From: Pseudanabaena sp. BC1403
GTDB taxonomy: Bacteria; Cyanobacteriota; Cyanobacteriia; Pseudanabaenales; Pseudanabaenaceae
Direction: 5' to 3'
DNA length: 64,000 nucleotides
NCBI RefSeq assembly: GCF_002914585.1
Contig: NZ_PDDM01000007.1
Span: forward strand, 62,001-126,000
Positions 44,529 to 59,154 of the stretch are shown here, piece after piece (position 1 is the stretch's first letter; the number at the start of each line of letters is the position of its first letter). The notes beneath the pieces were generated by a model. That model was not told where the DNA came from. It did no database searches and saw nothing but the letters and a program-made list of their open reading frames with translations. The position numbers were made by a program, and so were the translations under genes.

Positions 44529-44754
44529 AGCAATTCTCATTATGATACCGATTTTGGTGTTTCCAGCGCCTTCGGCGCTGGAAACACCAAAATCAGTTGT
44601 TTGAAAGACCGCCGCTGGCGGTCTTTCAAACAACTGATTTCTATAATGAGAACGGCTGTGCTAGGGCAGCAATTCTCATTGTGAAGCCAATTTTTAAATG
44701 AGAATTGCTGTTGCTAAGGATAAGCGCCACGAAGCAACGCTTATCCTTAGCAAC
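44529..44754. repeat. Cluster of interlaced palindromes
   Basis: Contains hairpins 44550-44594 (GCGCC-TTC-GGCGC centre), 44590-44640 (CCGCC-GCTG-GCGG centre), an outer stem TTCTCATTAT (44534-44543) with 44643-44652, a second AGCAATTCTCATT pair (44668-44709), and 44710-44754 (GTTGCTAAGGATAAGCG arms). Two copies of the AGCAATTCTCAT family start at 44529 and 44668. It sits between the tRNA gene and the DUF1400 hydrolase, occupying most of that spacer. Confidence 0.8.
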
Positions 44755-57536: not shown

Positions 57537-58466
57537 GTGAAGATTAGTAAAGCAATCATTGCCTATAAGTCGGGTAGTCAAATTGGCAAAATATGGGCTG
57601 AGCGATGTAGTAATGAGTTAGAAGCACTCGGAGTCAAGGTCTTAATTGGTCCAACAGGAGCAACAGATAACCCTTATCCCGTATTTCTCGAATCGATGCA
57701 TCAACAAATTGATCTTGCTGTTGTATTAGGCGGGGATGGAGCAACCTTGGGCGCGGCTAGATATCTGGCAAAACTTGAGGTTCCGATTTTGGCAATTAAT
57801 GTCGGTGGACATTTAGGATTTCTCACTCACTCAATTGAGGAATGTGAAAATACTGTCGAAATCTGGGAACGCCTCTTGTCCGATCGCTTTGCGATCGAGC
57901 GACGCATGATGCTAGAGGCAAAAGTAGTTACGGTTGATGAAGGCTTAGGGACGAGGCTCGGTCAACCCTGTGGCCCATTTTTATGTCTCAATGAGATGTG
58001 CGTCAAACCAGCTTCGCCCGATCGCATGGTCACTGCGGCTCTAGAACTAGAAATTGATGGCGAGGTGGTCGATCAATATCACGGTGATGGGCTAATTGTG
58101 GCGACACCGACAGGCTCGACTTCATACACTGTGGCGGCAAATGGGCCAATTGTGCATTCGGGAATGCACGCGATCGCGATTACGCCGATTTGTCCGTTGA
58201 GTTTATCGAGTCGAGCGATCGTGATTCCACCCAAATTAACGGTCAGTATTTGGCCGCTTTCGACTGATGACTTTAGTCTAAAGCTATGGACAGATGGAGT
58301 CATGGCTACGTCAATTTTCCCTGGGCAGAGAGTTGACATCCAGATGTCAGAGTGTCAAGCACAATTTATTGTCTTGCGAGAAGAATATTCTTATTATCAA
58401 GCGTTACGCCAAAAGCTTCTATGGACAGGCGCAAGAGTTCGCTATCCCAATCAATATAGAAACTAA
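57537..58466 (+). CDS. nadK: NAD kinase
   Basis: Phosphorylates NAD to NADP. A 309-residue enzyme, GTG start (GAGGGGAA upstream). Residues 65-68 are the catalytic GGDG (LGGDGATLGAARY), NVGGHLGFLTH follows, then the NE motif in LNEMCVKPASPDRM and the GDGLIVATPTGSTSY substrate loop. Cyanobacteria often carry two such kinases; this one has the usual length. The stop codon and final 18 nt of codons form the left arm of a palindrome. Confidence 0.93.
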   Translation: MKISKAIIAYKSGSQIGKIWAERCSNELEALGVKVLIGPTGATDNPYPVFLESMHQQIDLAVVLGGDGATLGAARYLAKLEVPILAINVGGHLGFLTHSIEECENTVEIWERLLSDRFAIERRMMLEAKVVTVDEGLGTRLGQPCGPFLCLNEMCVKPASPDRMVTAALELEIDGEVVDQYHGDGLIVATPTGSTSYTVAANGPIVHSGMHAIAITPICPLSLSSRAIVIPPKLTVSIWPLSTDDFSLKLWTDGVMATSIFPGQRVDIQMSECQAQFIVLREEYSYYQALRQKLLWTGARVRYPNQYRN

Positions 58467-58510
58467 AAGAGGGCGCTTTGCGCCCTCTTTTAGTTTCTAT
58501 ATTGATTGGG
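58446..58510. terminator. 65-bp palindrome overlapping the NAD kinase 3' end
   Basis: Arms of about 31 bp around TTT. The left arm runs from CCCAATCAATATAGAAAC (last codons) through the stop at 58464-58466; the right arm repeats these bases in inverted form after the gene. Perfect pairing. Terminator and possible record of an inverted copying event. Confidence 0.9.
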
Positions 58511-58563
58511 TTTCTTCGCTCCCCCTTGTTTAATGGTTTGGATTGGAGCGCAAGGTGCTGTAA

Positions 58564-59154
58564 TTAGTCACGAAATGCGATTCGACCAGTTTTCGGTAGG
58601 CTAAAAGCAAGGAAAGAGAAGAAATACAACATATAAACAATTCCCCCTACTGCACCAACAAAGGCTAAGTTCTCGAAAGGGATACCATTATGAAATATGG
58701 CGCTAAAGCTTAGCGGTGGCTCAAACCAAATTTTGCAAATGTCACTCAGTTGCTCAGCATTCATAAAGGCACAATTAGCGAATATTAACCGAAATATCAC
58801 GCTTAGTGAGCAATAAACCGTCGTAGCCCAACGCCATCCTAAATAAATTGGCTTAAGGCTCTTGCGCGAAGCTTCAATATCTTCATTTAAATCTTGCCAA
58901 AACCAGAGCGCAAGCACGATTAAAACCGCAGCTACAATGCCCGATATATAAGATATACCTAAACTACCGATCGCTAAATAAATAGTAATCAATACCAGAC
59001 TAGCAACGCGCCAATACAAAAGTAGCGATCGCTTGATTGCTTCATTGCCACTCCGCAAAGCCCAGATTAATAGGCCGAAGGGTATTAAAACAATAAACAG
59101 CAGAGCTAATCGATAGTCTAGCCATACAAGTTGACGAATAAGGGTTGCATCCAT
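58564..59154 (-). CDS. DUF3177 family membrane protein
   Basis: A 196-residue cyanobacterial integral membrane protein with about five hydrophobic segments: residues 14-34 (LALLFIVLIPFGLLIWALR), 45-65, 68-88, 105-125, and 160-185. The N-terminal MDATLIRQLVWLDYRLAL and the C-terminal LPKTGRIAFRD match DUF3177, function unknown. It is convergent-spaced from NAD kinase across a palindrome. Confidence 0.8.
   Translation of the reverse strand: MDATLIRQLVWLDYRLALLFIVLIPFGLLIWALRSGNEAIKRSLLLYWRVASLVLITIYLAIGSLGISYISGIVAAVLIVLALWFWQDLNEDIEASRKSLKPIYLGWRWATTVYCSLSVIFRLIFANCAFMNAEQLSDICKIWFEPPLSFSAIFHNGIPFENLAFVGAVGGIVYMLYFFSFLAFSLPKTGRIAFRD

Follow-up and report, generated by a model that had tools for sequence, protein, structure and literature searches.

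How do the last codons of a protein-coding gene come to form one arm of a perfect palindrome? The question is raised by the 3' end of nadK in Pseudanabaena sp. BC1403, where positions 58446-58510 of the window (the whole 64,000-nt stretch of DNA analysed, which lies in contig C7 of a 5.5-Mb genome denoted G000; other G numbers are compared genomes) form a palindrome with two 31-nt arms, 58446-58476 and 58480-58510, that are 100% complementary and separated by a TTT loop. The gene is identified as an NAD kinase by Pfam PF01513/PF20143 and NCBIfam NF002731. The left arm starts at a CCC codon of nadK, so that 21 nt of the stem are also coding sequence: 18 nt of sense codons and the TAA stop. A preliminary description had stated that the left arm holds the last six codons and stop of nadK and that the right arm is their exact inverted copy, and both statements are borne out. 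The features of the locus are listed in Table 1.

Table 1. Features at the nadK 3' end, in window coordinates
Feature	Position	Strand	Basis
nadK, NAD kinase; outer and middle left arm consist of its last six codons and stop	57537..58466	+	ORF, Pfam/NCBIfam
Copy source CCCAATCAATATAG, nadK coding end	58446..58459	+	same 14 bases in G019, G008, G012, G005; protein end same in the 7 nearest relatives
Left arm common to sister G019 (17 bp; inner 10-15 bp common to G012, G005, G008)	58460..58476	+	
Loop TTT, 3 nt; AAA in G019, G008, G010, G016	58477..58479	.	
Right arm common to sister G019	58480..58496	+	
New right-arm piece CTATATTGATTGGG, reverse complement of the nadK end	58497..58510	+	0/25 genus relatives; both genome copies at the locus; one-switch alignments
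Putative relic of ancestral second hairpin, left arm overwritten; probable return to the old template at GGG	58508..58536	+	alignment
DUF3177 protein gene, convergent	58564..59154	-	ORF, Pfam

The RNA of positions 58420-58540 folds with -63.8 kcal/mol (z = -11.7), and none of 200 shuffled sequences folded as well. When 20 dinucleotide shuffles of the whole window were searched for arms of at least 10 and loops of 3-8, the longest perfect arm was 11 bp; chance is therefore excluded for the palindrome. In the window as it stands, 21 palindromes have arms of 14 bp or longer. The nadK palindrome is real and far above chance, yet it is one among many in this genome.

The spacer between nadK and the convergent DUF3177 gene is 97 nt. 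By consensus match only, the hairpin scores as terminator-like on both strands, giving two of the three such sites in a 401-nt region where 0.4 would be expected, and it has the G+C-rich stem followed by a T run that is the consensus for intrinsic terminators. In an Rfam scan of the window, a tRNA was the sole match. Because the score is found on both strands and the genes converge, the hairpin is probably a two-way terminator shared by both. Its likeness to intrinsic terminators lies in a hairpin after the stop that is terminator-like on both strands; it differs in having a TTTT run inside the stem and in reaching 18 nt into codons. In E. coli the ribosome is reported to repress a terminator located very near the stop codon (PMC4824070), and a stem that reaches into codons may accordingly have no effect or a slight cost. 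The present evidence gives no sign of a benefit from the extension.

An NAD-kinase match was present in 57 of the 58 genomes searched, and nadK 3' ends were read in 26 genomes of the genus, G000 included. In two small genomes of the related genus g2, the nadK match carries one in-frame TAG (G026:C5:16509-17381 and G033:C5:25967-26836). The C-terminus YPNQYRN is identical in G000 and its seven nearest relatives (G019, G008, G018, G022, G012, G005 and G010), and the exact 14-nt CTATATTGATTGGG occurs downstream of nadK in none of the other 25 genus genomes, as read up to 300 nt from the stop or to the end of the sequence. The preliminary description had proposed that relatives would keep the coding end and lack the right-arm copy if the palindrome arose by copying, and the seven nearest relatives show this pattern. 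In the nadK tree, G019 is the closest sister with weak support (82/37); the clade of G000, G019, G008 and G018 is better supported (98/92), and its last three members are without the copy.

A perfect hairpin of at least 8 bp is found at the nadK stop in 17 of the 26 genus genomes. In G019, G008, G022, G012 and G005 the hairpin core is at the same place as in G000, and the perfect stem takes in 0-7 nt of gene end and stop together; arm length is 9 bp in G022, 10 in G012, 12 in G005, 15 in G008, 17 in G019 and 31 in G000. This hairpin, hairpin 1, is decayed in G010, and in G018 a different hairpin occupies its place. The loop reads TTT in G000 and TTA or TAT in G012, G005 and G022; we are unsure of its deeper ancestral state. 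Since the protein end is kept in relatives that have shorter arms and lack the copy, it follows that the outer right arm is new, whereas the small hairpin is old and the protein end no younger than the hairpin.

We compared two ways in which this new arm could have been acquired, point changes with indels and a single template switch. Against G019, identity is 1.0 over the outer 14 nt of the left arm and 0.36 over the outer 14 nt of the right; against G008 (16 nt) the values are 1.0 and 0.38. The low identity on the right indicates that a block was replaced. Allowing one switch lowers the number of edits from 46 to 33 for G019, 37 to 24 for G008, 44 to 34 for G022, 37 to 26 for G012 and 37 to 26 for G005, a saving of 10-13 edits in five of five relatives. 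The reverse and complement-only controls save at most 5 (46/46, 32/37, 44/43, 37/37 and 37/37 edits, in the same order). With G018 as the reference, where the spacer is ~180 nt longer, the controls drop nearly as far as the switch model. The copied piece has no mismatches to G019 or G008 and two each to G022, G012 and G005, and as an exact copy it may span up to 51 nt (G019) or 49 nt (G008). These alignments indicate that the coding end is older than the copy, that the copy is new, and that one switch is a far shorter account than point changes and indels.

Selection on the structure of the terminator or mRNA end could in principle have built the same stem, through point changes that paired with the fixed codons. 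Arm length does differ in steps across relatives, the hairpin lies between convergent genes with a terminator score on both strands, and nine one-sided stem changes exist among the orthologous hairpins compared below, two of them at nadK beyond the stem of the sister. Against this account, however, the new 14-16 nt of arm are unrelated to the aligned G019 and G008 bases, stem changes are paired and seldom leave lasting mismatches, and the nadK stem is longer than termination needs, a 17-bp stem being already sufficient and requiring no more pairs. We consider construction of the stem by such selection to be highly unlikely.

Read as its reverse complement, the right half of the palindrome (TTT, arm and copy) gives exactly copy source, arm and AAA, so copying from the opposite strand accounts for the loop and the extension together. 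If the new strand had instead folded back on itself, 36 edits would be needed for G019 and 27 for G008, compared with 33 and 24 for the opposite-strand copy; the three additional edits in each case are due to the loop. For G022, G012 and G005, fold-back is better by 1-2 edits (32, 25 and 25, against 34, 26 and 26). The preliminary description had suggested a right arm templated on the gene end, for example by hairpin fold-back, or else strong structural constraint. Templating on the gene end is supported for the outer arm and fails for the inner core, which belongs to the pre-existing small hairpin; as to the mode of copying, the inverted loop would favour a switch to the opposite strand over simple self fold-back, the latter being the better fit for the three relatives just named. 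The inversion of the loop at nadK may also have been a separate event, such inversions being common here.

The copied piece ends at a GGG, which forms part of a second hairpin of the AAAAGGGTTGCGAAGCAACCCTTTT type in the relatives. The return point reads AAAGGG^TTGCGAAG or AAAGGG^TTACGAAG in four of five relatives and AAAGAG^ in G005. This second hairpin is intact in G019 and G008; in G000 its left arm is gone and its right half remains.

The following course of events would account for these features. In the ancestor, a small hairpin, probably a two-way terminator, would already have stood directly 3' of nadK. Synthesis that had passed the nadK end and the left arm would have switched template at this hairpin and run backwards along the opposite strand, through the loop (thereby inverting it), the arm and the last nadK codons, before rejoining the old template at the GGG of the neighbouring hairpin. 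One event would thus have yielded the inverted loop, 14 extra paired bases and the loss of the left arm of the second hairpin. On the four-point criteria for template switching, the locus has an ancestral source whose copy is absent in relatives, an edit saving beyond that of the controls, and an inverted loop. We therefore think it very probable, on this comparative evidence, that the nadK hairpin was lengthened by a template switch that copied the nadK end, and we infer that this happened in a single event, during replication, via the opposite strand.

The loop and the inverted copy also bear on a different class of mechanism, in which cruciform cutting, processing of a hairpin end or recombination between the arms made the copy and flips loops. 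Exchange between the arms of a perfect palindrome likewise inverts only the loop, and off-centre opening of a hairpin end adds palindromic bases. Such processing alone, however, fails to set the junction at the shared GGG or to overwrite the left arm of the next hairpin, and all 26 genus genomes have SbcD, so loss of the hairpin nuclease is not what distinguishes the genus. We regard this route as unlikely.

We then consider whether the arm occurs elsewhere. In the whole genome, the 14-nt outer arm is exact only at the two places of the nadK locus; with one mismatch it has five matches elsewhere, and the reversed control has two. The preliminary description had named the presence of the arm at unrelated loci as the result that would argue for insertion of the palindrome before adaptation of the gene end, and the exact outer 14 nt are confined to nadK. 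The inner 12-bp core is found exactly at two other places and, with up to two mismatches, at seven other places in all, which indicates that the small hairpin came first and that only the outer part is derived from the gene. These distributions bear on the idea that the codons were brought in by a mobile palindrome, REP-like or another small dispersed repeat, which landed on the gene end. Dispersed palindrome families do exist in this genome, the inner core is among the sequences found at other places, and 22 of the 26 genus genomes encode Y1-type transposase domains. However, the codons predate the palindrome, the core is in the same position in five relatives with only 0-7 nt of gene end and stop together in the stem, and the presence of the same palindrome at many unrelated loci, by which REP, REPIN and small dispersed repeats are recognized, is not seen for the nadK outer arm. 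Insertion of a mobile palindrome appears to be largely refuted by the locus-confined outer arm and the conserved coding end, and we assign it very little probability. A Y1 transposase was considered separately as the driver of the nadK element and is unsupported, the domain being absent in 4 of 26 genomes and the outer arm unrepeated.

Changes of one style have affected the nadK spacer more than once. The second hairpin of G018 carries a stem of 31 bp; its left arm is located where most of hairpin 1 was, and its right side resembles the right flank of relatives. A fold-back there saves 11-21 edits against six relatives, compared with at most 9 for the reverse and complement controls. G003 has another stem, of 24 bp, that covers 15 nt of the nadK end, counting the stop. 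The growth of the G018 second hairpin (L036) runs in the opposite direction to that of the G000 nadK hairpin. The second hairpin of G019 was set aside as a further case of growth, the complement-only control being nearly as good against some relatives. At another gene of G000, which encodes 463 aa, 14 nt of the gene end with its stop codon lie in a 30-bp stem (C7 58701-58765, L133:16701-16765). The last residues, FIN, are shared by G019, where the palindrome is missing; in this two-genome comparison, a fold-back lowers the edits from 54 to 31, and the controls give 48 and 54.

How orthologous hairpins change was examined in G000, G019 and G008. At the nadK locus, stretches from eight relatives match only from window position 55.3 kb onward, to ~75 kb, which lies beyond the window end, and the wider comparison therefore relied on random overlap of the relatives' stretches. 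This gave 216 comparisons, which included 41 distinct orthologous hairpin pairs matched in loop length and in their inner four pairs. Leaving out the inner four pairs, which the matching rule fixes, 432 stem pairs were the same, 29 had changed on both sides and were still paired, 9 had changed on one side, and none had changed on both sides to become unpaired. These are the counts from the stricter stem trimming, which we used; permissive trimming gave 74 paired and 8 one-sided changes. Among pseudo-pairs in the flanks, 746 were the same, 5 had changed on both sides and 130 on one. Of 37 three-base loops, 10 were unchanged, 13 were exact inversions (one by a single base) and 14 had changed otherwise. 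Where all three loop bases had changed, 12 of 14 loops were exact inversions (binomial p 6e-16 if changes are independent and even). Paired change is expected under selection for structure too; exact loop inversion is not.

Of the 216 comparisons, 140 lack a hairpin with matching inner four pairs and loop length and were excluded from the loop and stem counts. Arms of 14 bp or more occurred in 129 of these; both outer arm ends were conserved in 54, the flanks were unclear in 31, and the rest were mixed. Defining clear one-sided growth as one side at least 0.8 identical and the other at most 0.5, we found it in a minority of changes: 6 of these 129 comparisons, one of them at nadK, and, where the arms of a hairpin pair differed by 5 or more, 4 of 10 pairs, of which two are nadK and one is only 6 nt long. 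Growth as clean as that at nadK is thus uncommon. The template-switch process looks general in the genus. In ten comparisons a palindrome is present or absent as a block, as if inserted or excised, for instance G000 C1 257211-257257 relative to G019, and G008 C1 248703 and C9 3921 relative to G000; these are candidate insertion sites of dispersed families.

Palindromes are abundant in this genus. A 904-kb sample of G000 contains 281 perfect palindromes whose arms measure 14 bp or more and whose loops are 3-8; 210 of them have a 3-nt loop. Around nadK, 15 loci from the genus contain 70 in 137 kb, and 65 loci from other cyanobacteria contain 10 in 643 kb, corresponding to 51 versus 1.6 per 100 kb, or ~33 times the density at this locus. 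Loss of SbcCD was considered as the cause of this excess and rejected, sbcD having been found in every one of the 26 genus genomes. Palindromes are found mostly between protein genes. Of 699 palindromes in 2.42 Mb from three genomes that share some sites, 135 extend 1 nt or further into the 3' end of an ORF (minimum length 100 aa); 99 take in the complete stop codon or more and 44 reach 7 nt or further, although some of these stops may come from the palindrome itself because ORFs were called by length alone. The overlap of 21 nt at nadK is the deepest of the 699. The preliminary description had stated that ordinary terminators do not pair perfectly over 18 nt of codons; in this genus, stems that reach a stop codon are common, and the nadK case is extreme rather than an exception.

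Several further regularities were seen. Among 152 G000 palindromes with arms of at least 20 bp, 36 have a foot like AAACCC or AACCCA and 38 a tip like GGCGGCGC; copies of these families differ in mid-arm, each still perfectly paired. Arm lengths in the G000 sample are bimodal, with peaks near 15 and 26 bp. The families (A)AACCGATTTTGGTGTTTCCAGCGCC and AAAATCGGTTGTTTGAAAGCCCGCC adjoin at four places, in both orders, to form a composite double hairpin (window 44550-44594 with 44590-44640, and G000 C1 180077/180119, C3 41951/41994 and C3 66085/66129). This composite element is possibly mobile in the manner of a REPIN.

That inverted repeats undergo template switching is well established (PMC7202029, PMC8794818, PMC8604942). 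For quasipalindrome-associated mutations in E. coli, intramolecular template switching is reported, from lacZ reporters with a 4-bp correction; the intermolecular strand switch appears in the reference list of that article (PMC7202029). There, as at nadK, one arm is rewritten from the other and pairing becomes more perfect, but the nadK change is a natural 14-nt extension whose source is the codons of a gene end. Template switching is also reported to create and maintain RNA hairpins in rRNA and microRNA, and the likeness extends to the formation of long perfect stems by a single event, to paired changes, and to loop inversion as the mark of the inter-strand route (PMC8794818). Complete loop inversions are given there as very rare, with 69 cases of loop inversion only, though enriched over simulation, whereas the present hairpins, which are mostly intergenic, show inversion of 13 of 37 three-base loops among closely related species. 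Yeast REG2 is described as having the same footprint, inversion of the spacer together with lengthening of the arm from 5 to 16 bp by intermolecular switching (PMC8604942), compared with 17 to 31 bp at nadK. The yeast changes are inside coding regions, whereas that at nadK is at the 3' end of a bacterial gene and has overwritten part of a second hairpin. A search of titles and abstract openings, with subscription journals mostly outside its coverage, returned no literature on palindromes in Pseudanabaena or on terminator stems copied from gene ends, and the available main text of a survey that covered perfect inverted repeats across 118,019 genomes contains neither 'cyanobact' nor 'template switch'. 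The mechanism is therefore already known; its prominence in Pseudanabaena was not met in the titles and abstract openings searched.

An old question is whether long perfect stems arise via single paired substitutions or by copying of one arm from the other. With many orthologous hairpins, frequent paired changes and loop inversions, this genus allows the two models to be separated by counting. Extrapolation from 281 palindromes in 904 kb to the 5.5-Mb genome gives well over a thousand, mostly intergenic, and we tentatively suggest, as a reading we hold to be possible but short of probable, that inter-strand switching rather than base-by-base selection builds, lengthens, flips and maintains them and captures gene ends repeatedly. 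The nadK case shows that codons can be recruited as part of a hairpin stem, apparently by a single mutation, with the protein unchanged.
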